Shown here piece after piece: positions 425-26,298 of a DNA stretch of 51,439 bases; position 1 is the first letter of the stretch; each line of letters opens with the position of its first letter. The notes below the pieces were generated by a model. It saw only the letters and a program-made list of their open reading frames with translations, was not told the origin of the DNA and did not search any database. The translations under genes were made by a program, and so were the position numbers. The stretch covers positions 1 through 51,439 of IMG/VR virus record IMGVR_UViG_3300020442_002879. One strand, written 5' to 3'. The stretch is from a virus.

Positions 425-459
425 TTAGGAGAGACAATTAGAGAGTCTTCGATGTTACT

Positions 460-811: not shown

Positions 812-816
812 AAGTT

Positions 817-3707: not shown

Positions 3708-3710
3708 GAT

Positions 3711-4340: not shown

Positions 4341-4342
4341 TA

Positions 4343-4351: not shown

Positions 4352-4375
4352 ATAGGGGTCACTCACAGAGAAATT

Positions 4376-4522: not shown

Positions 4523-4530
4523 GATAAATA
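4523..4530 (+). promoter_or_regulatory. T4-type late promoter (GATAAATA) for gp25-gp6
   Basis: GATAAATA matches the NATAAATA late motif of T4-like cyanophages (T4 consensus TATAAATA). It lies directly after the TAG of the 48-aa gene and 22 bases before the gp25 start, leaving a predicted leader of about 15 bases. It is placed to drive gp25, gp6 and the giant gene. Confidence 0.75.
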
Positions 4531-4551
4531 GTACGATAGTGCTTAAATGGA

Positions 4552-7004: not shown

Positions 7005-7008
7005 TTAG

Positions 7009-10000
7009 ATGAATATCAATAAGGTCTCCAACGCAGTTTCTAGCCAACTCCCAGACTTTATTTCTACGGAGTATGAACTGTTCTCAAAGTTCATCGAGTA
7101 TTACTATAAATCTCAAGAGAAAACAGGTTTAGGGCAAAATATCCTAAACAATTTCTTAGAGTATCTTGATATCGATAAATTGGATATCGATATCCTTGAT
7201 GGTGCCACCACACTTGTAGAAGATATCTCTAAGGATGATACAGTAATTACTGTTGAAAACGTAGAAAAGTTTTTAACGGAAAATGGATCTATTAAGATTG
7301 GTGATGAAGTAATCTTTTATGAGAACGTTTCATCTTCACCCAATATTTCCTTTAGACCTGGTGTATCTTATGAACAGGTCAATATTAAGCAAATTGAGTT
7401 ACAAAGTCCCCTTCGTAGTTTTGATGGGACTACACAATCGTTTGCACTTTTAAGTGAAGATAGTCCAGTTAGTCCTGTTAGTGCAAATCACTTAATTGTA
7501 GAAGTTTATGGTGAATATCTTGTACCTGGTATTGACTATACTGTTTCTGGAACGAGTATTGTTTTTACTGAGGCACCTAGAGCAGTACTGACTTCTGACA
7601 GTGCAGATTTAACAAGTATCAAATATTTTAGTGGATATATTGAAAATACTATTTTCTCTTTAAATGATATTTCTGCTAGTTTTGGTGATGGAAAAACTCA
7701 ATTTAAAGTAACTCGTAATGGGGAACAATTTGTTCCAGAAATTGATGAATATGTTATTGCTTATTATGATAACAACTTATTACATCCAAAAGTAGATTAT
7801 GTTTTTGATGAAGATCTCTTAATTTTTAGGGGATTTGCTCCTTTGAAAGGACGAAAATTAGATTTATTCTATATTGATGCGCCAATTCCTTCTTTTGGTA
7901 GTAATGCAGCTGCACATGCTAGAATTAATGATGCTGGACAACTTGAAAGTATTAAAATTGATGATGCTGGGTCTTCATATAGATTTGATTACCCACCTGC
8001 TATTGGTATTGGTGATGAGAATGGTTCTGGTGGTGCTGCAAAGGCACTTATCAATGGTGTAAAGAATTTGCAATTAATTAATGGTGGAATTGGATATAGT
8101 GATACCAATCCACCTATCGTAAATGTAGAATCACCAACCCAAGATGGATCTACTCCAGCAAAAATTACTGCAACGGTTTCGGGTGGAGTAGTTACTGGTT
8201 TAACTCTAATAGATTCTGGTAGTGGATATACTTTTGTACCTAGAGTCACATTTTCACAACCAGGAGGAGCAGTTGTAGATGCTCCTACCATTGTTGATGG
8301 TTCTATTTCTGGTGAGATTGTAGTATCTGCTAAGGGTTCTGGGTATACTACTGCTCCTGAAATTTATATTGATGAACCAACAGGTGATAATCCAATTAAG
8401 GCATCGTTCCAATCAGTTATCAACAGTGATGGTGAGATCACTTCAGTAACTATCTTGAATAGAGGTCAGGGATACACTACGACTCCCAGAATTCAGGTTA
8501 TTCAACCGACAGGTGCTCAAGTTTTAGAGACCACAGTTGATGCTGATGGTCGAGTTACTGGTATTGAACTTCTTAACGGTGGTTCTGGATATGAAGATGT
8601 CCCATCAGTCTACATCATTGATGACAGAACAGATCCATCTACAGGTGCATATTTGGGTGGCACTGGAGCAAAAGCAGTAGCATCAGTATTCAATGGTAGA
8701 ATTACTGATATCAATGTCACTGAGTTTGGAACGGGATATAGTCAAACAAGTCCACCTAAAATTATTATTCAAAGTCCTCCTCAAGCTTCGGCATCGGTTG
8801 AAATTGGTATTAACGAAATTACTGGATTTGAAATTTTAGAATCTGGCACAGGGTATTCCAAAGCACAATTTATTGGATGTGCTAGAGCAGCAAGTGGAAT
8901 TACTGGATATACTGAAGATGGTAATGCTATTTTTAGTAGAGATACCACTGCAACTGCACATAGCAATAATGATTCTATCAGTTGTTTAGATTCTTTATTT
9001 GTAAAAAGACTTCTTGACAAGTATAAGGAGCAATTTTTGCCTGATGTTCCTGAGTTAGACTATAAAAAAATTGATGTGCGTACATCAATTAAAAATATCA
9101 AAGATTTTTATCAGACTAAAGGTACTACTTTTAGTATTGAATATCTTTTCAAACTGCTTTATGGGGAAACTGTAGATGTTTCGTACCCTAAAGACCAAAT
9201 CATTAAACCTTCTGCGGCAACTTGGTCTATTAACACAATTCTTCGTGCCACATTAGAAAGTGGTGATCCTAGAAATATTCAAGATGCTTTGATTCAACAA
9301 GAAGCGGATATTGCAGACCCAAATGTTTTGGAGGCGAGTGCTCTTGTAGAAAATTATATTGCTATTAATACTGCAAATATTACTATTTACGAATTGGTCC
9401 TTTCGGAAGAAACAATTCAAGGAACTTTTGTTGTTCCATACAAAACAAGACTTGCTGAACCTCTTGGAGAAACTGATAGTATTATTACAGTTGACTCTAC
9501 AATTGGTTGGCCAGAAAGAAATGGTGAGTTTATTTTAGGTGGAGCAGAGGTTGTTCGTTATAAAGAAAAGTCATTAAACCAGTTTATTGAATGTACTCGT
9601 TTATCTCCTGGTAGTATTGGTCTTAATCCCTATGTTTGGGATTCTGCTACTGAAGTGGTCTCAAACTTTAAGGTTTATCTTAACAAGGGAACTGCTCAAG
9701 AAGTTGTCATGAATATTGTTGGTATCGTTGATGCACAACAAACTAATTTAACTGACACTGGATCTTACTATCTTCCTGGTGATAAACTTACTGTTGCTAA
9801 ACTTGGTGGCACTGGTGAGCAACCCCTTCTCACCACCTGGTTGTATAACGTTAAGAAACTCATTGAGGTTGAAGGTATTACTTTCGGCGGTGTTGATGAC
9901 AGATTTGCTACTGTAACTTGTACAAATAATCATGGATTACTGGTTGGGGACGAAGTTACCATTTATGGTGCAAATCCAATCATTTACAACGGAACGTTCC

Positions 10001-13000
10001 AAGTAACTTCTAGGGATAGTGATACCGTATTCCAATATCAATTGCCTCAAACGGCACTTGTAACTCCACAAGGTAATATTCTTGTATCTGTTAACTTAAA
10101 CAAAGGAAAGTCAACTAACACTCCTATTAACAACAGTATTTCTTCGTATACTACGAATATTCAGAATTCATTCTTTAATGATGATTATATCTACGTAGCA
10201 TCTACTGGTATTCCCAATTATAATGTTGGTCCTTTTGTTGGATCTGCACTTATTCCAGGAAACCAAAGAAAACTGAACAGATTTGTACAAAATCCAACTA
10301 CAATTTCTACCAAGAATACTATTAAACCTGGTCCTATCGGAACATGGGTTAATGGTGTTTCTGCTTGGTCTTATAAGTCTACACTATCGAAGACATTTGG
10401 ACCTATTACTGATATTACTATTTCCAATTCTGGTATAGATTATGACGCTGCATCTCCACCAACTGCAACTATTAGCGGTGGTGGTGGATCTGGTGCTACT
10501 GCGGAAGTTGTTGTAAACGGTTCTGTAAGCAGTATCAGTGTTGATACTGGTGGTAGTGGATATACATCTTCTCCCTTGGTTTCTATCGTCGGTGGAGGCG
10601 GTTCTGGAGCATCTGCAACCGCTATTATTACTAAGGGTAGTGTATCTAATATTTTAATTACGAATGGTGGTACTGGTTATACTTCTCAACCAGAAATCAC
10701 TATTGTTGGTGGTGAGGGTACTGGCGCTACTGGCACTGCATCTGTTAGAGGTCCTATTAAATCTGTAAATTTAACTTCTGGTGGTACTTCTTATACATCT
10801 AGTCCTACTGTTACCGTAAGTTCTGGTACTGGTGCAGTTGCACAAGCAATTGTTAATAATGGTAGAATTATTTCCATTGCTATTATTTCTGGTGGTTCTG
10901 GATACACGACAGCACCAGAAGTTCAAATCCAAGGTGTTGGATTTGGTGCGAAAGCAAGAGCAGTAATTGATAAAGAAGGTGAAAATGCAGGTAAAGTTAC
11001 TAGTGTCGAAATCTTAAATAGGGGGATTAACTATGTTCAAGGAACTACAGTTATTAACCTGACTTCTGTTGGGCAGGATGCAGAATTTTCTGCTAATGTA
11101 TTCCAATGGACATATAATTTACAAGAATCTTCCACTTTTGATGATTCGCAAGGTTCTGTTTTTGAAGGATATAACACTCAATATGGTGGTGAATATGCTC
11201 ACTTGTCTAATCCTCAAAGACTCAGATATATCCTTGGTGATAATCTGATTGAAAATAATGATGGAACTATTATCGAGAGAGAAACTCAGTTAAATCACTC
11301 TCCCATCATTGGTTGGGCATTTGATGGTAATCCCATTTATGGTCCTTACGGATATTCTGATCCTACAGACCAATCTTCTAATATCACAAAAATTTCTTCT
11401 TCCTATAGATTAAAAACCGCTTTAGTCTTAGATGAAATTACAAATCCAAATCCAGTTAGAACAGAAGGTCCACTTCTTAGTACTGATTCTGCGGGTACTT
11501 ACGTTGAAGATTATGAATACGTTTTCAATCTTGGGGATTTGGACCAGTATAATGGACGTTTCTGCAAAACTCCAGAGTTTCCAAATGGTAGGTATTGCTA
11601 TTTTGTAACTATTGACAATACTGAAGCAGGTAATCCAGTATTCCCATATGTTTTGGGAAGCGATTTCAATTCCGTTGTCGATTCTTGGAATTTGAACGCA
11701 GATGCTACCCAACAAAATATCCCAAGAGGTGTTGTTCGTTATAGAGATCCATATCAAAATGTTGATATTGATGTTGAGAGAACTCCGAATGCTTCTACAA
11801 ATTCATTATCTTTAGAAAATGGCGATATACTTTTATTTGAAGTAGAAGATGAAAATAGAGATGGTGTAATTAGTGAAGATGAGATTAATGACCCCGATCA
11901 AATTTTAGAAGAACCCCCTCTTCAGATTTTTGATTATTTCCCCAAAGTAAAGACAGAATCTAAAGTTGATATCGAAGTTGAAACTATTAGTAGATTTGAA
12001 AATGCTTCTATCACAGATTTTGTTATCGAAAATGCTGGTAGTAGTTATCAGGTAGATGATAAATTAATCTTTGATAATTCTGATACTGGTGGATCTGGTG
12101 CTTCTGCTCGTGTTTCTAGAATTAAAGGCGAAACAATTTCTAGTTATGGATATGAATATCGTCAGGGTGTAAATTACGGTAAAATTGTAACAACTTCTCC
12201 ACACACCTTAGAAGTAGGTGATACTGTTTTTGTTGATTATTCTGAAAATATTGAAACTACAAATAAAGAATTTGACGTAAGGCAGTTAAAAGGCATTGAA
12301 GAGGTTGTTGTCAATCAAACTGGTAGTGGATACAATGAGGAAATTCCTCCAACAATCCGTATTGATGGCGATGGTAATAGTGGAGAACTAGAGGCAGTCG
12401 TTGATTCTCTTGGTGCTATTAAAACAGTTAATATCATTAACTCGGGTAATGGATACACTACAAATCCAAGGGTTATTCTTTCACACCCTCAAGTCTTTAA
12501 GAAAGCAGATTACTATGTTGCAAAAATTGCAAATGAAGAAAATGTAACCATAAATGACGTTTTTGTGAATGATAGTAAAGAAACATTTATTTGTGGACGT
12601 ACTTTAGATGATAGTGGTAATACAGTAGCATTTGTTGCTAAGTTATCTGCTGGTGGTGTAAAAGAGTGGGAAAAAACACTTGAACTCACTAGTGGATTAA
12701 ATTATGCAGAATTCCAAAGAATATATGTTGAAGGTAATAACGTTTGGGTTGCAGGTATCAACAAACCCAATAGTACTGTATTAAATGCATATAACCCTGA
12801 TATCATTGTTGCTAAGTATATTCAATCGTCTGATGGACTGAGTGCTACTCTTAATTTCCAAAAAGCATATGGTGGTATCTCTGGTGCTCAACGTGCTGAC
12901 AATATTACATCTATCATTGGAACTACTGATAATAGAGTAATTATCGGTGGATACACGAATACAAATTCACCAAATCCATATGATGCTTTTATTGGTATTC

Positions 13001-16000
13001 TTGATTCTTCTGGCACATTTACAGTTAAGAGAAAAATTGCATCTTCAAGTGGAAATGAAGAAGTTAAAGATCTTCTCTTAGATTCTTCTGGAAATCTTTA
13101 CTTTATCTTAGAGACCTCTTCTACCCAAAATGCTAGTGCTAGAAATTTTGCCATCGGTAAAGCAACTATTACTTCTACCAGCATTACAACCACTTGGATT
13201 AAAGAAATTACAAATAATTCATACTCTTTCTTGAATACCTCATTCGCCATTGATGAGTTTGATGATATCTATGTTACTTCTACTCTTCAACTGAAGAGTG
13301 ATAATACAACGAGAGATAGTTTCTGGGTTGGTAAGTTTGATACTGATGGTGATACTACATGGAACTATCGTTATGCTGCCCCTGGTAGAGATATTAATTT
13401 AGCACCCAAGTGCGTTCTTGATATCTTTAATGAATTGAATATTGCATTTACCAGATCTGATAATACGACAGACAAGAAGACTGTAGATATTGTAAAACTT
13501 AATTATAAGGGTGAAATTATAAATCATACAACAAATGACTTCACACAAAATACTGTCGAAGGCATTACTGCTAATGCTCTTATAGTTGACAATTCTGGCG
13601 ATCCTTACATCTTTGGACAAACTTCTTGGAATAGAAACGAAGCAGTCTTTACTTTTGATACTGACTTAAGTGATACTACCACACATCATACCTTGACTAC
13701 TCTTGGTCTTGGTGGTTCTATTGCGAGAGATTCTGATGGATACATGAAGATTTTTGGATTCCAAACAGGTCAATCTACAGTATTTGAGAACAGTGCTATC
13801 AAAATTGCTGCAACCAGCTTAGGCAACGCATTGTCAAATGACTTTACTATCGATTTCCTTCTTTACAAAGATGCTGACAACGGTAATGCAGAAACATTGA
13901 GTGCAGATCAACAGACTCTCATTGCTATTGGTGATGCTCAGTCTGCTACTGGTGGTCTTTGGTTATACTATAATACCGATGGAACTGCTGCCGATGGAAG
14001 AATTGAGTTAGTTGTTACTAATGACACTACAGCATTCTCTGGTGCCTCTGCTGCAACAGGAACAAATACAGGATTGTTTGCTGATGATACTTGGCAGTTG
14101 ATTTCTCTTAGAAAAGAAACTAATACTTTTAAAGTATACGTAAATGGTCTTGAGCAAATCTCTGCTACGGTTGCTGAAACTTCTCTTGGTTCTAAGGATA
14201 TTCATATTGGTAACGTTCCTGGATTCCCTAACGCAGGTGGATTTATTGAAGACAATCAGGGTCAATTCTTTGTCGATTCTTTAAGAATTCGTAATAGAGC
14301 AGCCACTGTAACAGCACCTAGTGATTTTGGTAACCCATTAGTCCTTCCTGCTGCAGATGCAGTTGCTTTAGATCATACATTTGCAGATACCACATGGTTT
14401 GCACAGCAACATGCCAGATATGATTACATTGATTATGAAGCATTTGGATTAAAAGTTGACAAAGATGCCGATGCTGTTAGAAAGGGTACATTTAACTCTA
14501 ATACTGATAGTGATTATGGATTTACAAGAACTGCAGTAACTCCTGTAACTGGTACTGCCTTAACATTAGTATCTACTGGATATCCACTAGCAGAAGTTGG
14601 TTTCCAAACTTTAGATTTGAGCACGGTTATCACTACTATGTCTGAGGCAACGGAGTCTCTTGCATATAGCAGAGATATTTGGAGCTCTAGAACTGCAACC
14701 GTTCCTTCTCCTGGATCTCAGAAACTAAAAGTAACTGCAAATGTCAAGAATCGTTATTATTTTGAGACATTCAATCTTCTTAAGATTGATAATGTACAAG
14801 AACTTACTATTAATCAATTATTCAACTTTACTGTTGGGGCAAAATTAGTTCTTAGAAATGGTTCTACCTTTGTCAATAGTGGATATATTACTAGAATTGA
14901 TAGGGACAATAAAAAGGTATATGTTGCTATTAATAATAATGAGTGGAGTAATGATGTTGATGTATATGAATTATCTACTGAGCAGTTTAATGAGCAAAGT
15001 TCTTTCAATATTGTTGGTCCTGTTCCCAATGATATTAACGAAATTGCACAAACATTCCCCGATGTAGTAAATACAACTCCTGGAACATTTGACATTGATT
15101 TAGCAGATTTTAATGCTCCTGAAGATGTTGGTGGAACAAATAACTTAGATGAATATGCTAAGTTTAAATCTTATGCTGATGATGACTATAGTGTCAAAAT
15201 TGTTGAAGTTAGTGGATCGTCTAGTTTTGTTGTAGGTTCTGTTGTAACATTAAACTCTACTGACGTATCTTTCAATTCTTCTCGTTCTACAGTACAAATT
15301 ACAAATCTTACTGGTGTTACTAAGATTACTTTAGTTGCTAATCTAAGCAAAATTCTCCAAGTAAGTGCCGTTGCAAATAGTGATACAGTTTACTGTGTTT
15401 CGGACACACTTCATTATCTCAGTGATGGTGAGCAACTGTTTATTGATGGTAATCCAAGTCAAGAAGTTTCTGGTACTGTATATGATGAATATGATGGTTC
15501 ATTCCCTGTAGAACGAGTCATCAGTCCAATTGAATTTACATATAAACTTCCTCAGGCAGCAGTCAGTTCTCCTGCTACATCAGGTTCTTCTGTAAGTGTA
15601 TTTGTTAAGTCTCCTACTCTGAAGATGTACTATGGGCATCAATATTTGTTCAATCTTGGACATTCTTCGATGCTTGGTGGCAATTTATCCTTTGCCAAAG
15701 ACCCTCTCTATAAACTAGAGTATTCTTTTAACTCTATTGAGCGTATTGGCACCCCAGGTGTTACGGGTCAAGGTGTTCCTACACCAACAGTTAAGTTTAA
15801 GGTTACTGAGGATGTAATTACTAATATTTCATATTATTTTGATCCTTCGAGAACTGGTGATGATTCTCCCGTTATTCCTGATAGTTATTTGGATGTTACT
15901 TTCTCTCCATATGTCGGTACATTTACTGTAAGTTCTACTTCTGGTGGAACAATTACTAGTGGTGACAATACATTCCAATTTGTTCTCACCAATCAACCAG

Positions 16001-19000
16001 AAGATGTTGCTACTATTGCGAATGCAACATACAGCACTAGTTCCAAGAAAGCAGTTGGAGCTATTTCTAACATTCGTATTGTTAATCCTGGTGGATTCTA
16101 TACTAAACTTCCAGTAGTTGATACTATCGAATCAACTAGAAAAATTGAAAGAGTTGACATTGTTGACCCTGGAACTGAATATGCTGTAGGCACATACAAA
16201 GCTGTTCCTATTGCTGGTGATGGTGAAGGTGGATTAGTACAAATTACTGTTGCTGATGGTACAGATTCTGAGGGTGTATTGATTCCTGGTCAAATCCAAT
16301 CTGTTGTAGTTACTACCCCTGGTAAGGGATATACTACTGCAAGTATTGATGTTGAAGCAATTAATGGCATTCTTGGACCAGGACTTACTGGTTCGGGAGC
16401 AGAACTTAATGTTGTTATTCCTTCTTCGGGTTCTGGTGCATCTATTTTCACATTGGGTGAAGAAATTGGTAAGATTAAAAACCTTAAGAATAATAACTTC
16501 GGTTTCGATTATTCTCATGACTACACCCTACGTCCTGAAATTTCTTTCCCAATCAATGCACAACTGACTGCTACAAGTATTCTTGACAGCATCACTGTTA
16601 CCGATCCTGGTTCTGGATATACTCAGGCACCTACAGTTGTTATTTCTGGTGGTGGTGGAACTGGTGCAATTGCTGAAGCAACTATTAAGAATGGTAGACT
16701 ATTTGCCATTGAAGTCAAAGATCCTGGGTCAGGATATTCTTCTCAACCACAAATTAATCTCAAATCATCCTTCAACTATGTTGTAAACCTTGATTTGGGT
16801 CTGCTACAGTTCGCGTTCCCACATGGCATTCAAAATGGTGCTGAAATCACTCTTTCGGCTACTGATACTGGTGATGGCGCAGAATTGCCACTTGCAGCTG
16901 GTGCTATTGGTAGATTAAGTGCAACTACCACATATTATGCTATTGCTGGTTCTGGAAACTCTTTGGAAGGCGATCAATTGAAACTTGCAATTACTTCTGC
17001 AAACGCAGAACTTGGTGATGCAATTTCTTATGTCAATGCTGGTACTGGTCGTCAATCGGTTCTTACCGAATCGTTTGGTGGTGCTGCAGAAGCAAATGTC
17101 ATTACTTCTACCTTCTTGGAAGGTGAGTTAGTATATCAAGGTGATTCTCTGGAAAATGCAACTGCTCAAGGATATGTTTCTACAAACTCTGGTTGGCAAG
17201 TTGGACCTAGAATTCTCAAGTTAATTGATTACACTGGAACATTTGCAGAAGGTCAAACAATTACTGGTGTTATTTCTAAGTCTTCTGGTATTATCTCTAG
17301 ACTTAAGATCGCTAGAGGTGTTCTTGAAGTTGGTTCTATCACTAAAACTACAGGTCAATTTGTTGATGATGTTGGTAAACCCTCTGAAATTATTCAAAAG
17401 ATTCAAGACTCTTACTATTATCAAGACTTCTCATATGCTGTTAAGTCTTCTGTATCGATTAGTGAGTGGAAAGATGTTCTTGTTAGAAATGTACACCCTG
17501 CTTCCTTTAAGGTGTTTGGTGAACTTTCTATCGGTGACTATGCTACAATTCCAAATAAAGAAACCGATTTTGAGTTAACAAAGTCTGTTGAACTTGCTAA
17601 TGAGGCAATTGTTCCTAATATTCAAAACTTTACTCTTGTTGAACCCATTTATAGTGAGTTTAATAATACTGAGATTCTTTTCCGTCAAAAGAGACTGACT
17701 TCTTCGGAGAATATTCTTACTTCTGTTGTTCAAAGAATTGATGATATTTCTGGATTGTTTGATGGTGTTAGAACCTCATTCCCACTAACAGTTAATAATG
17801 GCGATTCTGTCATTGCTAATGCAAATCAATTGATGGTCATTATGAATGGTGTTGTTCAAACACCAGAGGTTGCGTTTGAAATTCAAAGTGACTCTATTGT
17901 CTTCTCTGAACCTCCTGCACCCCCTGCTAGTGTAAAATATGTCAATGTTGAAATTGCACCAATTTCGATTATTGAAAATACATTTGCTAGCACTAGTGGA
18001 ATTGTACCTAGTGTTGGACAAACTTTAACAGGTACTGGATCTGGAGCAAGACTGACTGTTACTAGGGTTACTGCAACAACGGTCAATATTGGAAGTCAAG
18101 AGGCACCTAATAATGTACAAAAAGAACTGATTGAGGGTTTCTTCACTGAAGGTACTGCATTCAGTGCTAATGAACTTGTTCTTGGTAATGCAACAGGATT
18201 CTCGGCATTATTTGAGACTGCTCAGGCAGTTGCAAATAACGGATTATTTGAATTTGGTGAGACTGTTACTGATCTTAGTGGTGATACCGCAGTTGTTGAA
18301 GATATCAACCTTGAGAAGGGTGCAGAAACACCAATCGCTAAGTTGAGATACACTGTAGGTCCTTCGACAACCTCTTTTGAAGCAATTGCTCAAGATTCGA
18401 CTATTAATGCACCTGCTCCCGTAGCAGAAGGAACATTTGTAGTTGATAGTAATTATCAAATTGGTAGTGAAATTATTACAGTCACTGCAATTACTCAAAA
18501 TACTGAGTCTACGACATTAACAGTCACTAGAGCACAACTGGGTACTTCAGCTGGTGGTATTCAGCAAAGCACTCCTCTGTATGGAACTGATATTACAATT
18601 ACTGATGATCTTACTTTAAGTAAGACTGTTGGTACATATCAGTCCAAACCTGGTTTATATGATATTCTCTTAGATGAGATTATTATCGGTGCAAAATCTC
18701 GTGTTGTTGCAAGAATTACGTCTACAACTCCATATACAGATCCTACAACAAATCAGGTTGTTGAGTCTGTTGAGATTTCTGAAGGTTCTTCTTTCTTCGC
18801 ACTTCTGTTCGATAGAATTCAGTCCACTACTTATCCAAACATTGTCCTTGATGACATTTCGCAATCTCAGATTGCAGTTGTTGATTTCACTGATAACAAT
18901 ACAGACTTTAACGTCAAGTTCCCTGAAAATGAAACTATTAATCATTATGTAATTCCTTACGATAATGAGACAGGCGATCTGCAAGATGATGAGTATATCA

Positions 19001-22000
19001 GAAATTATAAGATTGAATATGGTAATGATAGTGGTAACTTTACATCTGGTGAAGACCTTTCTATCCGTAAACTGGCATTAACAAACGCTGTCGGTGATGG
19101 ATTCTTCTCCTTGGGTCAAACTCTTCGCTCTAGAGACAGTAAAGCAGAAATTATTGGATATAATCAAGCACAGAAGACTGTCTACCTCGGAAAGGTTGGT
19201 AGAGTACGTAGTACTGGAGAAGACTACCATACAGCAACATTTAATGGCGATGCACAATTAGATACTGCTCAGATGAAGTTTGGTACAGCATCGTTGCTTC
19301 TCGACGGAACTGGTGATTATCTTTCCATTCCAACTTCTAATGAATTTGGTTTTGGTACGGGTGTATTCACTATCGAGTGTTGGATTCGTCCTTCAAGTGT
19401 TGCCAGTGGAACAAAAGTAATTGCAGATTTTAGACCTACTAGTAGCGATAGTGCTGCATTGTTACTTTTAAGCGGTTCTACACTGGAATATCAATCGTAC
19501 CTTGGTGCTGGTTCTATCACTTCAACCACTAATCTTTCTGCTGATACTTGGTATCATGTTGCTATTTCCAGAAGTGGTTCTACAACTAGACTATTCATTG
19601 ATGGTGTTCAAGAAGGTGGCGATCTTACAGATAACACTGATTATGGTTCAACAAGACCAATTAAAATTGGTTCCAACCTTAATGGAAGTGCAGAATTCCC
19701 TGGACACATTGATGAATTTAGAGTTTCTAACCTTGCTCGTTATACAACAACATTTACTCCCCGTGATGGAATCTTCCAAGGTGATATTAATACTAGACTT
19801 CTTCTTCACTTTGATGGAGCAGATGCTCAAACATATACTGAAGATTGGTCTGGTTCTCAAGACTTTACTAAGGGTGAGGAGTTTAATAATGATGCCATTA
19901 ATGCAACCACAGATGCTAACGGTAGTGCTGTAGTTACTGGTTTTACTGGTAAGACACACAGATATTATGATGCCGCAAATCTTCTTGAGAAAAACAAGAA
20001 TTTCCTCGCAAAGGAAGTTGTATATCTCTTGACTCAGCAGTATCCTTCATTAACTATTCCTGGTGGTAATGTCAACTGTGAGGACGACATTGAGGATATC
20101 GTTGAGGCAATTGTTGAGGACCTTCGCAATGGTTCTAACAATCACATCTGGGACGCTGCAGCACTTTATGTTGACAGAACTGATACAAATGCAGTAACCC
20201 TCAACCACGTTGAGACTGAAATTGATGAAACTGTCTGGGCATACAATAAACTCGGTGATCTAATTCCTTACATTATTAATAATGTTCTCTGGACAGTATC
20301 TGGTTCTCATGGATTGACTCAATACACTGATGCCACAATTACAGATTCTAATAATACTGTATATGGTCAATACACTCCAACTGCAGCAACATATGATGCT
20401 GCAACAGGTGTCATGGTTCTCACTATTGGTTCACACAGTTTGACAACTTCAAGTCAAATTGCTCTTGAAAATGGTAGTATTGTATTCACTTGTTCTTCTG
20501 ATAATAATGCAACTCAGCATAGATACCCCAGAAGTGATGATCCAGCATATGAGAGCGTTCTTAAGGTAACTGCTGTTACTGGAACAACGATTACTGTCAA
20601 TGTTGGTGCATCTCCTGTAGATAGACAGTACACCCACACATTTGTTTCTGCAGATTCTAATGCTGTCAGACTTCTCAATTATACAGTCGGTGATTGTGCA
20701 GACGTTGCTTCTACTGCAGACAACCTGCTTGATATTTTAATTGACACTCTGACAAATGCAGACTTGGCAACTCCTGTTGACCACCTGGGAACTATTACTA
20801 AGGTTTCTCCTGCAGTTGAATATCAAGGTGCTACTGTAGATAGTTTCTATGAAGAGACTCTGCAAGCAAACTATACTGACAATGCAAATGATACTTTATA
20901 TTCTAATATTATTGGTTCTAGTTCTCAGTATAGATTTAAGGATGCTGCTAACTTGATTCGTGCAAATAGAACTGCAATTGTCGATAAGGCAGCGTTTGAT
21001 ATGCTTGATAGATATCCAGATCTTGCTAACTCAATGCCTAGAAATGCTGATGGTACAAGCACTGCAGGTACTGAGCGTTGTAAGACTGATTTGGGTCTGA
21101 TTTTAGATGATATTGCCACTGATATTGAAAAGGGAGGCAACAAAACTGTTGCAACCACATCTAAGTTCTACATTGGTAACAATAACGAACTTCAGCACAT
21201 TCGCTTACAAGTATGGCAGTCTGTATATGCACATGAAAGACTTGGGTATTATGCAAAACAGGCAATCAATGGTGATTTAACCACTGATAATACTGATGAA
21301 TTAATCATTGGCGATTGGGGTATTACAAATGACCCTGGTCAATGTGCTAACGTTCAAACTGCTATTGATAACCTGATTACACTTCTGAATGATACAATCG
21401 CTCCTACAGGTTCTGATTACAATATCGCTGCAGACAGACTTTACTTCAACAGGTCTTTCATGGCAGAAGAGGCAACAGGATTACTCGATGCTGAATTCAC
21501 ATATGTTCTGAATAACATTTCATATAGAGCGTTTGATTATCCAAATGGAAATGCTGGCAGAGAAAAATGCCAGAGAGACCTCAAGTTGATTATTATTAGC
21601 ATTATTTCTGACCTTCAAACTGGTGGAAACAATAGCACTATTGATGCAATTGAACTCTATCTCAATGCAAATCTCCAATTAGACCATATTGAAGAGCAAC
21701 TTGCTGCGACTATCTTCGGTATTGAGAGTCTTAGAACTCTTGGATTAAAAGCAGTTGAAAATCTTCTCTACAGCTCTGGTACAGCGGTAACAGGCGATCA
21801 ATACTCTGGTACATATGCAACCACTTCTGCATATAGAGATGCTTTAAGTATGACTGATGTTGAATCAGTCAAGGCAAGATGGGGTGAATTGATTGATATT
21901 GCAGTTAGAACTCTGTCTCCTGCAGGTATTCCTGGCAGATATGCTTCTCAGCAGATGCTGTTCAATAAAAATTATTATAGAACAGAAATTACAAACACTG

Positions 22001-25000
22001 TTAATAATCAGTTTGGTGCATCTTCTTGGTCTTATGATTCATTCCTTGATGGATTAGTTGATAACCTTTCTCATGATATTATTATTACTGATACTTCATC
22101 TAATAATAGAACTGATGCTAGAAGAATTTCTCTTGAAAGAGAAGGCGTTGTAAACGAACTTGTATTCACTAATGGTGCTGGATATCAGTCAGTTCCAACA
22201 ATTGCATTTGATGCACCTGCAGCGGGCATTACTGCTGCAGCAGTTGCGACTCTTGAAGCAACTGGTCCCCTCTCTTCAATTAATGTTACCAGTGGTGGTT
22301 CTGGATATACTGTTGCTCCTGATGTAACTTTAACAGGCACTAACATTGGTGATGATGGTGCAACTGCCGTTATCTCTAGTGGTGCTGTTACAGCAGTTAA
22401 TTATGATGGTATTGTTTGGGATGCTGAATCTGGTATTGAGTGGTTGCAGTTTGGTGCTGGTGCTGAAATTCAAGATGCTGGCACTGGAACTGGCACTACT
22501 GGTGGATTCGCTGGTCATGGTAAATACGTTAAACTTGGTGCCGCATCTGGTGCAAGATGGGCAATGACTACACGTAGAGATACCACAGATTCTGATATTG
22601 TTCGTATTTACGCTATTGCTGGTAATAATACAAACGGTGGTGAACGTCCTGATAATAGTGAAGACCTTAGACTCTACTACAGAGCGAATGGGTCTAATGG
22701 TAGTTGGGTATTTATCGATAGAATCATCTACGGTGGTACTGGTACTGGAACAGGCAATCAAAATTATGCAAACTTTAGTGATTGGACTGCTATTGATGTA
22801 ACTTTACCTGCAGCAGCAAAAGCTCCAAATACACAGTTTATTGTGTATTCCACAGGTTCTAACAGTCTCCTCTTTGACCATTATGGTGTTGCTAGAATTG
22901 GTGCAATTGATAGCACTAAGGAGTTTGAAGGTACAGTAACAGTTTCGTTTGCAGATGGTGCTGAAGAAACTGGGACTCCAACTGCAGCAACTGCAGACTT
23001 TATTACTCTTCGTGAAGTTTCTGATGTAACCATTACCAATCCTGGTCGTGGATATGATCCTGCCAATCCACCTTCAGCAACATTTAGTGGTGGTAATCCA
23101 AGCACGGCTGCTACAATTACTAACGTTAACGTTGTTCTGGATACCTCTAGATTTACTGATGGTGAGACCTTGACCTCTAGTGGTGGGGGAACTGCTACGG
23201 TTCTTGAAGATACTGGTAACGCAGTTTACATCGGTCCTATTACAGGAACAGTATTTGCTGATGGAGATACGTTAACTGGTGGAACTAGTGGAGTTATTTC
23301 TACTATTCCTACGGGCGGTGTTGGAACAGTCTTTGATTATTATACTAATGTTGGTAACGTACTTACATTCAATGATGCTAGATTGATTCAATCTCCTATT
23401 GCAGACCAATTCTCTGTAACTAATCTCTGGACTAATCCCGAAGCATTTGAAGTTAACTGGAATAGTCCTGATACCACATTTACAGCGAATAATCTTCTTG
23501 CTCCAGATAGCACACAAACAGCAGAAAAAATTACTGCAGATGCTACCACCAGTGAGCATTTTATTGATAGAGTTTATAATCTATCCGCATTTGAAACTTT
23601 TGATGGCACAACTACATTTGACTCTGAAGTTGAAAGTTTCGATACTGGATCGATTGTTGAAGGTGAAGACCAGACCTTTACGACTTCTCTCTTTATTAAA
23701 GCAGGTGAAATTTCTACCATTAGATTTATGGCAATTCTTGATGATGGCGATCCTGGTGAGCAAAGACTATTCTTTGATGTCAATTTAACAGACGGTTCTA
23801 CTGGTTCTATCTTCCAACCTGAAAATGGTTTGGTTTCTTTCTCCACTGGGGTTGTTCCTTTTGGTAATGGTTGGTATAGGATTTTTGCAACCCTTCAGTT
23901 CTCATTCGGTTTTGGTAGTTTGACAACGCGAATCAAACTTAAAAATCCTGCAGAATCGTTTGCTGGTGACGGAACTTCTGGTATTTACGTTTGGGGTGCT
24001 AAACTCAATAAAAATGCAGTTGATGCATATACTGCAGTTGGTGGAGAAGTATTCTACTCCAATACCGAATATAATGTTAAGAGATTTGCTCTTGATTTAC
24101 TTGAAGACTATATCGAAAATGCTCTGGATGGTGTTCTCTCATCTCCTACACCAAATGGTGCATATGCATTCGATAATTCTACGTGGAGAGCAGCGTATGA
24201 TACTGATGAAATTCTTAGAATTGTTAGAGAGAACGTTCAGTTCTATAGAGAACAATTGGACAACTCGACATACTATGTCGATGTAACTGTCAATCCTGGA
24301 ATTACAATTCCTACTAAGGAATATGGTATTGATTATGTACCCACGGGTGCTGGTGGTGGATTAACTACATCCGATTATTTCTATGGTCAATATTCTGATC
24401 AGAATGCAGAACTTGAAACCTTCTTGCTAAATGAGGCACAAATTGCTAAGGTTTATAAGAGGTTCCGTATCGATGGTGACATCACTGATGGACCATTTAC
24501 TATGGGTGAAGTCGTATCCAAGCAAGGTGCTTCTGGAGTAACGGGTGTTGTTTATGGATTCCATGAAGATGAAAATTATAAGTATCTTGATGTTGAAGTT
24601 ACTGCAGGTACTTGGGCAATCAACGATATCATTGAAGGTGCAGAAAATACCACTACTGCTACATTGAGTTCCATTGAAAATAGAATTCATATCATTAAAC
24701 TGAAGGGAACGTTTACTGATGACATTCCTTTCTACGCATACACTAGTGAAGAGTCTGCTTCTCCCACAGGATTCCTGAGAAATGAGGCAGCAGTACTGGA
24801 TAATAGTGGTGGTAAATTAACTGTTGACACTGACACCTTGCTTGGTACATTTGACAAGAATTCTGTCGTTTACTCTAGTTCTACAGAACTTTATATTGAA
24901 GTTCAGAAGTATGAAGGTACGGATGTTAAGATTGGTGATAAGATTATTTCTGGCGGAAATGTACGATTTAGTTTCTCTACTAGCGTAGCAGACTTTACTG

Positions 25001-26298
25001 TTGGACATTACGTCTATAAATTGAATTCTGGTGGTGGTAGAGACATAAGCAAGAGAGCAATTATTACTGGTAAAGATACTGCTAATAATTATCTCTATGT
25101 TGCTCCTATTGATGGAACTTTTGTAATTACTGATTCGATTGGTGATTTTGGTGCAGCAGGTGGTGGTGCAAACACAGTCGCTACGGGCACAGTCGCTACA
25201 GTAGTTACTACTGCTGGGTCTGCATATGCACTGATTGGAAACATTGTTACCGTTGGTGTTAACAAGCGACTTTATCTGACCAATGTCATTGGTACATGGG
25301 ATGCAAATGATTATGTTGTTGGTAAGAATGATTATAGGTCTGTTATACTCGATAAGGTGGTCTCACGCGCCCGCGTGAAGAGATCCTTCCGTGGATTTGA
25401 TGGTACTCAAACAACGTTTGACCTTACGATTAACAATGGCACTGCATATTTACCTGACCCCGCAGGTCACATGCTTATCTTCGTTAATGGTATCTTGCAA
25501 CCTCCTGGTGCTGGTAATGCATATAACGCATTCTCTGATAAGATTCAGTTCGCAGAGGCACCCGATCCTGGTTCAACATTTACTGGATTCTATGTTGGTA
25601 AACTGAGACAACTGGATGATATTTCGTTCGAGTTTGACTCCTTGCGTCAATCCTTCAACCTTAAGCGTGATGATGTTTTCTACTCTTTGACACTGACTGA
25701 AGGTGTACAGTCCACAACCATCAGACCTGAAAATAATATTATTGTTTCTCTCAATGGTGTTATTCAGGAACCTGGTGTTGGTTTTGAGATTGTTGGTTCT
25801 AGAATTATCTTCTCCGAAATTCCACGTTTTGGTTCTAGCTTTGCAGCATTCTCTTATGTTGGTTCTGAAGCAGACGTTGACGCAGCAGAAGTTGTTCCTC
25901 CTGTTGAACCTGGTGATTTCCTCTCGATTCAGGGTGAGACCGAAGATCGTGAAGTTGCGGTTATTGAATCGTCAAACTCACTTATCACATTTGATTATCT
26001 TGGTTCCGTATTCGGTCAGAATGCTGAGGCAACAGCAGTCCTTACAAAGGGATTCATTGAAAAAGTTAGCGTAACTTCTCCTGGTTCTGGTTATACTAGC
26101 AGACCCGTTGTTAGAGTTGACTCTATTAGTGGATTCAACGCCGACATTCGTGCAATCGTCGGCATTGGCAAGGTTGAAGTTAGTAATGTAGGTTCGGGAT
26201 ATAAAAATCCTGAAGTTTTAGTTGAATCTGAAGTTCCTGACGATTGGACTGCTCCAAACCTTGCAGACTACGGTGAAGAACCCGTTGATTATCTCTGA
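7009..26298 (+). CDS. Giant virion protein at the gp7 position, 6,429 aa, with many adhesin-like modules
   Basis: An uninterrupted 19.3-kb frame starting four bases after gp6. Residues 1-65 (LPDFISTEYELFSKFIEYYY) and 690-740 (DFYQTKGTTFSIEYLFKLLY, then a YPKD strand) look like conserved cyanophage wedge sequence, and synteny puts it at gp7 (T4 gp7 is 1,032 aa). Then, approximately: GSGY repeats 314-621 and 1131-1358; YHYH-like 1428-1564; EF-hand-like loop 1614-1625; beta-propeller-like 1828-2214; LamG-like 2218-2441; GSGY 3018-3258; 'NGVVQ' module 3578-3651; second LamG-like 4073-4278; three or more helical repeats 4318-5034; jelly-roll 5134-5301; CBM-like 5473-5678; two 'NGV-Q-PG' modules 6123-6285; GSGY to the end. 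No signal peptide or membrane helix is seen. It is probably a wedge component fused to a receptor-contacting arm. Fold names are pattern-based inference. Confidence 0.8.
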   Translation: MNINKVSNAVSSQLPDFISTEYELFSKFIEYYYKSQEKTGLGQNILNNFLEYLDIDKLDIDILDGATTLVEDISKDDTVITVENVEKFLTENGSIKIGDEVIFYENVSSSPNISFRPGVSYEQVNIKQIELQSPLRSFDGTTQSFALLSEDSPVSPVSANHLIVEVYGEYLVPGIDYTVSGTSIVFTEAPRAVLTSDSADLTSIKYFSGYIENTIFSLNDISASFGDGKTQFKVTRNGEQFVPEIDEYVIAYYDNNLLHPKVDYVFDEDLLIFRGFAPLKGRKLDLFYIDAPIPSFGSNAAAHARINDAGQLESIKIDDAGSSYRFDYPPAIGIGDENGSGGAAKALINGVKNLQLINGGIGYSDTNPPIVNVESPTQDGSTPAKITATVSGGVVTGLTLIDSGSGYTFVPRVTFSQPGGAVVDAPTIVDGSISGEIVVSAKGSGYTTAPEIYIDEPTGDNPIKASFQSVINSDGEITSVTILNRGQGYTTTPRIQVIQPTGAQVLETTVDADGRVTGIELLNGGSGYEDVPSVYIIDDRTDPSTGAYLGGTGAKAVASVFNGRITDINVTEFGTGYSQTSPPKIIIQSPPQASASVEIGINEITGFEILESGTGYSKAQFIGCARAASGITGYTEDGNAIFSRDTTATAHSNNDSISCLDSLFVKRLLDKYKEQFLPDVPELDYKKIDVRTSIKNIKDFYQTKGTTFSIEYLFKLLYGETVDVSYPKDQIIKPSAATWSINTILRATLESGDPRNIQDALIQQEADIADPNVLEASALVENYIAINTANITIYELVLSEETIQGTFVVPYKTRLAEPLGETDSIITVDSTIGWPERNGEFILGGAEVVRYKEKSLNQFIECTRLSPGSIGLNPYVWDSATEVVSNFKVYLNKGTAQEVVMNIVGIVDAQQTNLTDTGSYYLPGDKLTVAKLGGTGEQPLLTTWLYNVKKLIEVEGITFGGVDDRFATVTCTNNHGLLVGDEVTIYGANPIIYNGTFQVTSRDSDTVFQYQLPQTALVTPQGNILVSVNLNKGKSTNTPINNSISSYTTNIQNSFFNDDYIYVASTGIPNYNVGPFVGSALIPGNQRKLNRFVQNPTTISTKNTIKPGPIGTWVNGVSAWSYKSTLSKTFGPITDITISNSGIDYDAASPPTATISGGGGSGATAEVVVNGSVSSISVDTGGSGYTSSPLVSIVGGGGSGASATAIITKGSVSNILITNGGTGYTSQPEITIVGGEGTGATGTASVRGPIKSVNLTSGGTSYTSSPTVTVSSGTGAVAQAIVNNGRIISIAIISGGSGYTTAPEVQIQGVGFGAKARAVIDKEGENAGKVTSVEILNRGINYVQGTTVINLTSVGQDAEFSANVFQWTYNLQESSTFDDSQGSVFEGYNTQYGGEYAHLSNPQRLRYILGDNLIENNDGTIIERETQLNHSPIIGWAFDGNPIYGPYGYSDPTDQSSNITKISSSYRLKTALVLDEITNPNPVRTEGPLLSTDSAGTYVEDYEYVFNLGDLDQYNGRFCKTPEFPNGRYCYFVTIDNTEAGNPVFPYVLGSDFNSVVDSWNLNADATQQNIPRGVVRYRDPYQNVDIDVERTPNASTNSLSLENGDILLFEVEDENRDGVISEDEINDPDQILEEPPLQIFDYFPKVKTESKVDIEVETISRFENASITDFVIENAGSSYQVDDKLIFDNSDTGGSGASARVSRIKGETISSYGYEYRQGVNYGKIVTTSPHTLEVGDTVFVDYSENIETTNKEFDVRQLKGIEEVVVNQTGSGYNEEIPPTIRIDGDGNSGELEAVVDSLGAIKTVNIINSGNGYTTNPRVILSHPQVFKKADYYVAKIANEENVTINDVFVNDSKETFICGRTLDDSGNTVAFVAKLSAGGVKEWEKTLELTSGLNYAEFQRIYVEGNNVWVAGINKPNSTVLNAYNPDIIVAKYIQSSDGLSATLNFQKAYGGISGAQRADNITSIIGTTDNRVIIGGYTNTNSPNPYDAFIGILDSSGTFTVKRKIASSSGNEEVKDLLLDSSGNLYFILETSSTQNASARNFAIGKATITSTSITTTWIKEITNNSYSFLNTSFAIDEFDDIYVTSTLQLKSDNTTRDSFWVGKFDTDGDTTWNYRYAAPGRDINLAPKCVLDIFNELNIAFTRSDNTTDKKTVDIVKLNYKGEIINHTTNDFTQNTVEGITANALIVDNSGDPYIFGQTSWNRNEAVFTFDTDLSDTTTHHTLTTLGLGGSIARDSDGYMKIFGFQTGQSTVFENSAIKIAATSLGNALSNDFTIDFLLYKDADNGNAETLSADQQTLIAIGDAQSATGGLWLYYNTDGTAADGRIELVVTNDTTAFSGASAATGTNTGLFADDTWQLISLRKETNTFKVYVNGLEQISATVAETSLGSKDIHIGNVPGFPNAGGFIEDNQGQFFVDSLRIRNRAATVTAPSDFGNPLVLPAADAVALDHTFADTTWFAQQHARYDYIDYEAFGLKVDKDADAVRKGTFNSNTDSDYGFTRTAVTPVTGTALTLVSTGYPLAEVGFQTLDLSTVITTMSEATESLAYSRDIWSSRTATVPSPGSQKLKVTANVKNRYYFETFNLLKIDNVQELTINQLFNFTVGAKLVLRNGSTFVNSGYITRIDRDNKKVYVAINNNEWSNDVDVYELSTEQFNEQSSFNIVGPVPNDINEIAQTFPDVVNTTPGTFDIDLADFNAPEDVGGTNNLDEYAKFKSYADDDYSVKIVEVSGSSSFVVGSVVTLNSTDVSFNSSRSTVQITNLTGVTKITLVANLSKILQVSAVANSDTVYCVSDTLHYLSDGEQLFIDGNPSQEVSGTVYDEYDGSFPVERVISPIEFTYKLPQAAVSSPATSGSSVSVFVKSPTLKMYYGHQYLFNLGHSSMLGGNLSFAKDPLYKLEYSFNSIERIGTPGVTGQGVPTPTVKFKVTEDVITNISYYFDPSRTGDDSPVIPDSYLDVTFSPYVGTFTVSSTSGGTITSGDNTFQFVLTNQPEDVATIANATYSTSSKKAVGAISNIRIVNPGGFYTKLPVVDTIESTRKIERVDIVDPGTEYAVGTYKAVPIAGDGEGGLVQITVADGTDSEGVLIPGQIQSVVVTTPGKGYTTASIDVEAINGILGPGLTGSGAELNVVIPSSGSGASIFTLGEEIGKIKNLKNNNFGFDYSHDYTLRPEISFPINAQLTATSILDSITVTDPGSGYTQAPTVVISGGGGTGAIAEATIKNGRLFAIEVKDPGSGYSSQPQINLKSSFNYVVNLDLGLLQFAFPHGIQNGAEITLSATDTGDGAELPLAAGAIGRLSATTTYYAIAGSGNSLEGDQLKLAITSANAELGDAISYVNAGTGRQSVLTESFGGAAEANVITSTFLEGELVYQGDSLENATAQGYVSTNSGWQVGPRILKLIDYTGTFAEGQTITGVISKSSGIISRLKIARGVLEVGSITKTTGQFVDDVGKPSEIIQKIQDSYYYQDFSYAVKSSVSISEWKDVLVRNVHPASFKVFGELSIGDYATIPNKETDFELTKSVELANEAIVPNIQNFTLVEPIYSEFNNTEILFRQKRLTSSENILTSVVQRIDDISGLFDGVRTSFPLTVNNGDSVIANANQLMVIMNGVVQTPEVAFEIQSDSIVFSEPPAPPASVKYVNVEIAPISIIENTFASTSGIVPSVGQTLTGTGSGARLTVTRVTATTVNIGSQEAPNNVQKELIEGFFTEGTAFSANELVLGNATGFSALFETAQAVANNGLFEFGETVTDLSGDTAVVEDINLEKGAETPIAKLRYTVGPSTTSFEAIAQDSTINAPAPVAEGTFVVDSNYQIGSEIITVTAITQNTESTTLTVTRAQLGTSAGGIQQSTPLYGTDITITDDLTLSKTVGTYQSKPGLYDILLDEIIIGAKSRVVARITSTTPYTDPTTNQVVESVEISEGSSFFALLFDRIQSTTYPNIVLDDISQSQIAVVDFTDNNTDFNVKFPENETINHYVIPYDNETGDLQDDEYIRNYKIEYGNDSGNFTSGEDLSIRKLALTNAVGDGFFSLGQTLRSRDSKAEIIGYNQAQKTVYLGKVGRVRSTGEDYHTATFNGDAQLDTAQMKFGTASLLLDGTGDYLSIPTSNEFGFGTGVFTIECWIRPSSVASGTKVIADFRPTSSDSAALLLLSGSTLEYQSYLGAGSITSTTNLSADTWYHVAISRSGSTTRLFIDGVQEGGDLTDNTDYGSTRPIKIGSNLNGSAEFPGHIDEFRVSNLARYTTTFTPRDGIFQGDINTRLLLHFDGADAQTYTEDWSGSQDFTKGEEFNNDAINATTDANGSAVVTGFTGKTHRYYDAANLLEKNKNFLAKEVVYLLTQQYPSLTIPGGNVNCEDDIEDIVEAIVEDLRNGSNNHIWDAAALYVDRTDTNAVTLNHVETEIDETVWAYNKLGDLIPYIINNVLWTVSGSHGLTQYTDATITDSNNTVYGQYTPTAATYDAATGVMVLTIGSHSLTTSSQIALENGSIVFTCSSDNNATQHRYPRSDDPAYESVLKVTAVTGTTITVNVGASPVDRQYTHTFVSADSNAVRLLNYTVGDCADVASTADNLLDILIDTLTNADLATPVDHLGTITKVSPAVEYQGATVDSFYEETLQANYTDNANDTLYSNIIGSSSQYRFKDAANLIRANRTAIVDKAAFDMLDRYPDLANSMPRNADGTSTAGTERCKTDLGLILDDIATDIEKGGNKTVATTSKFYIGNNNELQHIRLQVWQSVYAHERLGYYAKQAINGDLTTDNTDELIIGDWGITNDPGQCANVQTAIDNLITLLNDTIAPTGSDYNIAADRLYFNRSFMAEEATGLLDAEFTYVLNNISYRAFDYPNGNAGREKCQRDLKLIIISIISDLQTGGNNSTIDAIELYLNANLQLDHIEEQLAATIFGIESLRTLGLKAVENLLYSSGTAVTGDQYSGTYATTSAYRDALSMTDVESVKARWGELIDIAVRTLSPAGIPGRYASQQMLFNKNYYRTEITNTVNNQFGASSWSYDSFLDGLVDNLSHDIIITDTSSNNRTDARRISLEREGVVNELVFTNGAGYQSVPTIAFDAPAAGITAAAVATLEATGPLSSINVTSGGSGYTVAPDVTLTGTNIGDDGATAVISSGAVTAVNYDGIVWDAESGIEWLQFGAGAEIQDAGTGTGTTGGFAGHGKYVKLGAASGARWAMTTRRDTTDSDIVRIYAIAGNNTNGGERPDNSEDLRLYYRANGSNGSWVFIDRIIYGGTGTGTGNQNYANFSDWTAIDVTLPAAAKAPNTQFIVYSTGSNSLLFDHYGVARIGAIDSTKEFEGTVTVSFADGAEETGTPTAATADFITLREVSDVTITNPGRGYDPANPPSATFSGGNPSTAATITNVNVVLDTSRFTDGETLTSSGGGTATVLEDTGNAVYIGPITGTVFADGDTLTGGTSGVISTIPTGGVGTVFDYYTNVGNVLTFNDARLIQSPIADQFSVTNLWTNPEAFEVNWNSPDTTFTANNLLAPDSTQTAEKITADATTSEHFIDRVYNLSAFETFDGTTTFDSEVESFDTGSIVEGEDQTFTTSLFIKAGEISTIRFMAILDDGDPGEQRLFFDVNLTDGSTGSIFQPENGLVSFSTGVVPFGNGWYRIFATLQFSFGFGSLTTRIKLKNPAESFAGDGTSGIYVWGAKLNKNAVDAYTAVGGEVFYSNTEYNVKRFALDLLEDYIENALDGVLSSPTPNGAYAFDNSTWRAAYDTDEILRIVRENVQFYREQLDNSTYYVDVTVNPGITIPTKEYGIDYVPTGAGGGLTTSDYFYGQYSDQNAELETFLLNEAQIAKVYKRFRIDGDITDGPFTMGEVVSKQGASGVTGVVYGFHEDENYKYLDVEVTAGTWAINDIIEGAENTTTATLSSIENRIHIIKLKGTFTDDIPFYAYTSEESASPTGFLRNEAAVLDNSGGKLTVDTDTLLGTFDKNSVVYSSSTELYIEVQKYEGTDVKIGDKIISGGNVRFSFSTSVADFTVGHYVYKLNSGGGRDISKRAIITGKDTANNYLYVAPIDGTFVITDSIGDFGAAGGGANTVATGTVATVVTTAGSAYALIGNIVTVGVNKRLYLTNVIGTWDANDYVVGKNDYRSVILDKVVSRARVKRSFRGFDGTQTTFDLTINNGTAYLPDPAGHMLIFVNGILQPPGAGNAYNAFSDKIQFAEAPDPGSTFTGFYVGKLRQLDDISFEFDSLRQSFNLKRDDVFYSLTLTEGVQSTTIRPENNIIVSLNGVIQEPGVGFEIVGSRIIFSEIPRFGSSFAAFSYVGSEADVDAAEVVPPVEPGDFLSIQGETEDREVAVIESSNSLITFDYLGSVFGQNAEATAVLTKGFIEKVSVTSPGSGYTSRPVVRVDSISGFNADIRAIVGIGKVEVSNVGSGYKNPEVLVESEVPDDWTAPNLADYGEEPVDYL
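7940..8880 (+). repeat. GSGY beta-repeat cluster I in the giant gene
   Basis: About ten divergent units of roughly 30 codons carry the pattern 'I-x-N-x-G-S/Q-G-Y-x-x-x-P-x-V/I' followed by a Gly/Ala-rich turn. Examples are LIDSGSGYTFVPRVTF and LLNGGSGYEDVPSVYI. The spacing and Gly-Tyr turn suggest beta-solenoid-like stacking. The same unit recurs in other genes of this window. Confidence 0.7.
10400..11010 (+). repeat. GSGY beta-repeat cluster II in the giant gene
   Basis: Six to seven units, more alike than in cluster I, for example DTGGSGYTSSPLVSIVGGGG and ITNGGTGYTSQPEITIVGGE. Each is followed by 'GSGASATA'-type turns. The near-identity of neighbouring units suggests recent tandem expansion. 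Confidence 0.75.
11848..11883 (+). other. EF-hand-like calcium loop inside the giant protein
   Basis: Codons for D-E-N-R-D-G-V-I-S-E-D-E (residues 1614-1625) fit the canonical 12-residue loop D-x-N-x-D-G-x-I-x-x-x-E with all ligand positions occupied. It lies just after the YHYH-like domain in an acidic segment. Confidence 0.6.
19960..22110 (+). repeat. Helical repeat modules (three clear copies, one partial) in the giant gene
   Basis: Copies start near 19960, 20928 and 21424, with a partial copy near 21940. Each begins with a 'D-A-A-N-L-hydrophobic-x-x-N-+' helix, followed by a tyrosine/proline segment and a conserved Cys-acidic helix: NCEDDIEDIVEAIVEDLRNG, RCKTDLGLILDDIATDIEKG, KCQRDLKLIIISIISDLQTG. 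Between them are Asn-rich and histidine-containing connectors. They contrast with the beta-rich rest of the protein and look like an alpha-helical spacer or multimerisation unit. Confidence 0.65.
25363..25378. repeat. Perfect GC-rich palindrome in the giant gene
   Basis: TCACGCG (25363-25369) and CGCGTGA (25372-25378) form a 7-bp inverted repeat around CC. The patch is far more GC-rich than the surrounding AT-rich gene. It encodes S-R-A-R-V within a short basic linker just before an 'NGV-Q-PG' module. Confidence 0.6.

Follow-up and report, generated by a model that had tools for sequence, protein, structure and literature searches.

The stretch of DNA analysed here, called the window, is a viral sequence of 51,439 nucleotides (IMG/VR record IMGVR_UViG_3300020442_002879, positions 1 to 51,439). 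Its baseplate genes are the following:

4552-4971, gp25, upstream of gp6
4971-7004, + strand, gp6 baseplate wedge (phrog_219, E 1.7e-229), which fixes the position
7009-26298, + strand, giant gp7-family baseplate wedge gene, 6,429 codons
26324-27553, + strand, gp9 wedge-fibre connector (phrog_677, E 6e-186)
27562-32235, further wedge subunit, downstream of gp9
32270-33802, gp8, after the further wedge subunit

The order gp25-gp6-[giant gene]-gp9-...-gp8 places the giant gene directly after gp25-gp6, as expected for a gp7-type wedge, in agreement with the gp7 position proposed in the initial annotation of this DNA. In the ORF listing the gene starts with ATG and runs as a single intact frame encoding 6,429 aa, with a predicted mass of 690.6 kDa. 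It had been described as one gene with a 19.3-kb open frame, about six times the length of T4 gp7; both points hold, considering that the ORF is exact, that independent isolates carry a colinear single CDS and that the ratio to the 1,032-aa T4 gp7 chain in the PDB is 6.2.

ACG-2014b records from different isolates gave one colinear megablast match over 96% of the ORF length at 81% nucleotide identity, and the counterpart there is a single annotated CDS of 6,422 aa; that of S-RIM8 has 6,395 aa. In every ~400-codon window of the giant ORF, dN/dS was 0.05-0.33 against ACG-2014b and 0.10-0.27 against S-RIM8, and this purifying selection indicates that translation and selection extend over the entire frame. 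An assembly or misjoin artefact, already judged unlikely in the initial annotation, was rejected as having practically no chance of explaining the giant ORF, since same-length genes are known from many isolates and dN/dS is low throughout the frame. The absence of exact long repeats reported there was also confirmed: self-blastp of the giant protein at E<1e-3 returned no internal repeat, and a tandem-repeat search found none within the ORF.

The giant protein is a member of PHROG 701 (6,136 positions, of which 1-6132 were matched); the gene is an already catalogued family and the window gene a new member. Full-length orthologues of the window protein in marine T4-like cyanophages are annotated as PHROG 701 or T4-GC969, 'virion structural protein', where the phycobiliprotein content described below is not stated; otherwise there is no difference in kind. 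Two other PHROGs, phrog_19630 and phrog_18802, correspond to giant-protein residues 1-1276 and 3304-6427, which suggests that the gene is split or broken in some phages.

The product of the giant ORF is in all likelihood a real virion protein, as supported by published proteome data on its orthologue cluster: Sullivan et al. 2010 (PMC3037559) identified T4-GC969 among the proteins of purified virions of S-SM1, and the T4-GC969 tag is borne by the giant genes Syn19_088 (Syn19) and SSSM5_094 (S-SSM5). The shorter gp7-position protein ORF122 of S-CREM2 (1,937 aa) was detected with 91 unique peptides (PMC10665884). Our literature search found no baseplate structure for marine T4-like cyanophages.

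Other features were observed around the gene. A 209-aa protein with a PAAR-family PHROG match (3711-4340) sits between phrog_719 and gp25, and a 1,706-aa structural protein (42275-47395) matches the N-terminal domain of major tropism determinant (PF18454, E 1.4e-15) and has tandem repeats of 12 bases close to its end. The wedge gene at 27562-32235 has a YHYH match and repeats in common with the giant protein, and therefore modules move between neighbouring tail genes. ACG-2014d, S-RIM14 and S-WAM1 possess an extra ORF of ~530-590 aa between the giant gp7 and gp9 (22577-24340, 20739-22460 and 22335-23939 of loci L008, L009 and L010).

A gp7-type core opened by insertions

Comparison with short gp7s and domain searches divided the giant gene as follows:

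7009-7443, + strand, wedge core block 1, residues 1-145 (blastp, Melnitz-1 gp7 residues 10-163, E 1.5e-7)
8200-8880, + strand, GxGY glycine-rich repeat insertion, about residues 398-624 (motif map and PHROG repeat matches)
9001-9432, + strand, wedge core block 2, residues 665-808 (Melnitz-1 E 5.9e-16, phiM12 E 3.7e-16)
9028-9201, + strand, PF23786 Baseplate_wedge within core block 2, residues 674-731, above cut-off
11089-11619, + strand, YHYH domain, residues 1361-1537 (PF14240, E 1.1e-34)
11989-12474, + strand, wedge core block 3, weak, residues 1661-1822 (blastp, Melnitz-1 E 4.7e-4)
13792-14307, + strand, Laminin-G-like (concanavalin A fold) domain 1 (PF13385, E 5.9e-6, just under cut-off)
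17224-17556, + strand, wedge core block 4, residues 3406-3516 (Melnitz-1 E 1.7e-20)
19303-19740, + strand, Laminin-G-like domain 2 (PF13385, E 2.7e-23)
22540-22854, + strand, Reelin-subrepeat-like beta domain (PF21471, E 2.6e-5, below cut-off)
25366-26295, + strand, C-terminal region, residues ~6120-6429, with beta/GxGY modules also found at the C-termini of P-HM2 and S-SM2 gp7

GtgE, DUF4183 and other weak Pfam matches were taken as chance.

By blastp, the 896-aa gp7 of Melnitz-1 matches window residues 4-145, 665-808, 1661-1822 and 3406-3516 in the same order, and the last part of PF23786 is weakly seen again at residues 3464-3506. As the core blocks keep their order with large gaps between them, the core has been opened by insertions of ~520, 800 and 1,500 residues and extended by ~2,900. 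The proposal of a wedge gene grown by module accretion is thus well founded, the growth consisting of insertions into a small core. T4-type gp7 homology stops at core block 4, as the gp7-position protein of phiM12 (1,007 aa) has its C-terminus at window residue ~3529.

We also asked how the core relates to T4 gp7. A single-sequence PDB search with the N-terminus of the giant protein gave no match, and a profile of 36 short gp7s (A4) had as its sole PDB match the T4-type gp7 (9f4a), weak (E 0.28) and in three colinear pieces that begin at residue 639 of the chain. The N-terminal domains of T4 gp7 (residues 1-640) had no counterpart in this match. For the 896-aa short gp7, an AlphaFold model of low confidence (pLDDT 53), used as support only, was compared by Foldseek: the first two matches and one more among the first five are 5iv5_BJ, 9f4a_A0 and 5hx2_A (best E 8e-4). 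We take these to be gp7 from entry and chain length; they belong to T4 and Klebsiella phage baseplates, and their 1,004-1,031 residues fit gp7. Judging from these alignments and predicted structures, the giant protein is a relative of the gp7 core without the first ~640 residues of T4 gp7. It resembles T4 gp7, a 1,032-aa baseplate wedge protein, in gene order and in colinear core segments reached via short intermediates, and differs from it in having a core split by insertions, an extension of ~2,900 aa and no match to those first residues.

Lengths at the gp7 position range from 896 aa in Melnitz-1 and 1,007 in phiM12 to 1,454 in S-CRM01, 3,007 in S-SSM7, 4,156 in S-SM2 and 4,454 in P-HM2. 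Proteins of 6,171-7,124 aa are found in S-SSM5, S-RIM14, S-RIM12, S-IOM18, S-RIM8, ACG-2014b, the window, Syn19, S-WAM1, ACG-2014d and P-SSM7, and open frames of 5,424-7,312 in S-CREM1, Syn9, P-RSM4 and P-SSM4. On a gp6 tree the long forms (5.4-7.3 kaa) make one fully supported group of 18, with the forms of 0.9-4.5 kaa outside; the comparison with related cyanophages suggested in the initial annotation therefore shows length to be lineage-specific. Overall, that annotation was right about the gene, its position, its growth and its lineage-dependent length. Its view that both ends look like normal wedge sequence stands for the N-terminal half and fails for the C-terminal end, and it missed PHROG 701, the published mass spectrometry of the cluster and the phycobiliprotein-fold modules.

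Two other gp7 loci deserve mention. In Syn30 (HQ634189, 2005-5985) the match to the initial 997 residues of gp7 falls into two pieces, ~1 kb over the expected span, and the gene may contain an insertion or intervening element. S-SSM7 (L012 12151-21156) has a separate 3,001-aa gene, also named gp7, in which the module of window residues 4454-4556 is repeated.

Phycobiliprotein-fold modules of the extension

Three helical modules sit within the extension, at 19960-21801:

19960-20343, + strand, phycobiliprotein-fold module 1 (PF00502 at 19933-20085, E 5.7e-4)
20917-21402, + strand, phycobiliprotein-fold module 2, 162 aa, with Cys55 and Cys143 (PF00502, E 3.6e-5)
21415-21801, + strand, phycobiliprotein-fold module 3 (iterative searches)

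By inspection, module 1 is followed by a beta domain, which precedes its last helix. By iterative searches the window has three module copies and its relatives have 2-7. PF00502 (Phycobilisome), matched within the extension, is above the Pfam cut-off with a 1200-aa segment and under it with module 2 alone; the module-bearing tail protein of S-PM2 reaches E 1.1e-9. As Pfam sees some copies above cut-off, an automatic annotation may exist somewhere. A literature search that covered few subscription papers turned up no description of phycobiliprotein-like domains in the tails of cyanophages, and so far as this literature shows, the phycobiliprotein content and the link with cpeT are unreported.

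A single-sequence PDB search with the module region gave no match, and therefore profiles were used. A profile of 35 module copies (A1), searched against 177,635 PDB sequences, gave 114 matches at E up to 5, the best 60 of which are all phycobiliproteins or engineered derivatives (smURFP); the best E was 2.4e-5, and the phage Cys-x-x-Asp falls on the bilin-attachment residues Cys84/Asp87. Using hhalign, the modules matched a profile of 143 host cpcA/cpcB-type proteins with probability 95.2, E 2.6e-8 and a score of 54.9; column shuffling, done 30 times, gave no score above 18.6, and reversal of the profile gave 12.7. When the module 2 class was left out the probability was still 93, an independent match. 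The AlphaFold model of module 2, built from 50 alignment rows from the window and viral contigs only, reached pLDDT 80 and pTM 0.82. Its best 50 Foldseek matches in the PDB are all phycobiliproteins, mainly beta subunits, with probability 1.00, over 154-168 columns, TM 0.58-0.72 and sequence identity of about 13-18%. With regard to the N-terminal helices X and Y of phycobiliproteins, alignments of the module sequence begin at phycobiliprotein residue ~35-40.

Residues of the bilin site are conserved among up to 157 distinct module copies: the Cys84 site is Cys in 87%, the Asp87 site is Asp in 91%, the following Gly is kept in 94% and an Asn, located where the first two helices meet in a kink, in 100%. 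Many copies read K-C-x-R-D, as in phycobiliproteins. Some module 3 copies have lost the Cys, which is therefore not needed in every module. Module 2 contains two Cys only, 55 and 143, the latter where the last helix (142-161) begins, in 'ITNDPGQCANVQTAID', and host CpcB also contains two only, 83 and 154, with Cys 154 in 'ITRGDCSALISEIASYF'. The Cys before the last helix of module 2 matches the second-bilin Cys position of phycobiliprotein beta subunits, as hhalign pairs the Cys143 motif with the beta Cys154 motif, with low local confidence at that end; the Cys143 motif is kept in ten other gp7s. In beta subunits it is T-type lyases, among them CpcT, that act on the second bilin site (PMC10452541).

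Based on profiles and the predicted fold, the three modules are homologues of phycobiliproteins (PF00502; phycocyanin, phycoerythrin beta subunits), with which they share the predicted fold and the Cys and Asp of the bilin site, and from which they differ in being arranged in tandem within a giant tail protein. We considered whether this likeness could be due to convergence only, as the low Foldseek identity and moderate TM values would allow. This reading is largely refuted and very improbable: the Asn, Cys-x-x-Asp and Gly are specifically conserved, two module classes match phycobiliproteins independently with shuffled controls far lower, and the modules are distributed in cyanophages only. 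Indeed, tblastn of the module against 50,697 phage records gave 355 hits, 354 in records named Synechococcus, Cyanophage or Prochlorococcus and 1 named only 'Marine'. Because phage hits are confined in this way, we infer that the modules were captured from a cyanobacterial host.

The explanation that we favour as a whole, at a probability of about 0.78, is that of one 690-kDa virion protein made of a gp7 core, inserted arms and phycobiliprotein-derived modules. The gp7-type core, in the N-terminal ~3,530 residues and cut into blocks by GxGY, YHYH and lectin-like modules, would join gp6 in each of six wedges (six copies), while the insertions and the ~2,900-residue extension would stand out from the baseplate as large arms at its periphery, contacting fibres or the cell surface. 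The captured phycobiliprotein modules would have multiplied, serving cyanophage tails as compact helical building blocks, and the peripheral baseplate arms would be built partly from such antenna-protein domains.

CpeT and the role of the modules

A homologue of the T-type lyase CpeT (PF06206), frequently present in cyanophages and encoded there by a gene separate from the module, occurs in every module-positive phage tested. CpeT homologues were found in 22/22 module-positive and 0/6 module-negative phages, the module being detected with its own profile and CpeT with PF06206 plus a phage-built profile that was made from module-positive phages and might overlook divergent CpeTs in others. In four phages CpeT escaped PF06206 and was recovered by the phage-built profile; in the 6 module-negative phages PF06206, too, found no CpeT, and a 2010 table lists P-SSM2, S-SM2 and S-SSM7 without cpeT (PMC3037559). 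Seven further IMG/VR contigs, most of them fragments, are concordant on module and cpeT (3 and 4). The naive Fisher p is 2.7e-6 (1/376740), and the gp6 tree offers 2-4 independent contrasts only, all concordant (sign test p 0.5). The association is not significant once shared ancestry is corrected, and is a lead, not proof.

The position of cpeT differs between clusters. In S-CAM4, ACG-2014e, S-RIM44, S-PM2 and S-RSM4 it lies ~0.3-1.4 kb upstream, on the same strand, of a module-bearing tail gene of 3.8-4.5 kaa, whereas in cluster-A genomes it does not adjoin gp7 (12.7 kb vs 53.6 kb in ACG-2014b). The first five phages named belong to cluster B, and their loci (L230 3515-16502; L231 3953-17268; L233; L234; L235) show cpeT directly before a ~4-kaa module-bearing tail gene. 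In the S-PM2 record (NC_006820, 168556-173383; L231), 16 tRNAs are annotated inside the giant tail CDS; ARAGORN found none in this CDS and nine further upstream (3383-5303 of L231), and the tRNA coordinates of the record look misplaced.

A refinement of the favoured explanation, which we think probably correct, is that the modules have a structural role only, as a helical spacer or dimerisation unit that derives from a phycobiliprotein of old and carries no pigment, while CpeT serves host phycoerythrin and accompanies the modules via shared ancestry alone. The Cys missing from some module 3 copies, the distance between cpeT and gp7 in cluster-A genomes, the non-significant corrected test and an Fe-bilin reductase that does not track the module, being absent from most module-positive phages, are all consistent with it. 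Harder to reconcile with a purely structural role are the strong conservation of the two Cys and the Asp of module 2, the place of CpeT just upstream of the module-rich tail gene in five cluster-B phages and the 22/22 vs 0/6 distribution.

The contrary reading is that phage CpeT attaches a host- or phage-made bilin to the modules, resulting in a pigmented baseplate. Module 2 has both beta-type Cys positions, CpeT co-occurs with the module and adjoins the module-bearing gene, and the function of cyanophage cpeT and pebS was called unresolved, a mystery, in 2010 (PMC3037559). Against this reading, P-SSM2 and S-SSM7 own bilin reductases without the module, and we regard a pigmented baseplate as unlikely. 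We know of no precedent for a light-related role of a virion. The constant company of CpeT suggests, speculatively and not as proof, that some modules bind a bilin, and the phycobiliprotein-like modules may account for the pigment-attachment gene of these phages.

Returning to the favoured reading of a gp7 core with captured modules, a wedge protein that once had about 1,000 residues grew past 6,000 with its core still recognisable. The host photosynthesis genes so far known in phages supply enzymes; in the present case a light-harvesting domain of the host has apparently become a building block used repeatedly in the virion tail. This tail module, phycobiliprotein-like and with two conserved cysteines, is a concrete candidate substrate for phage cpeT. 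It is even conceivable, though we doubt it, that the baseplate and tail proteins of marine cyanophages are biliproteins in their own right, their modules being chromophorylated by phage-encoded CpeT. If true, cpeT (perhaps also pebS, pcyA and ho1) would gain a virion substrate, even in Prochlorococcus hosts, which have no intact phycobilisomes.
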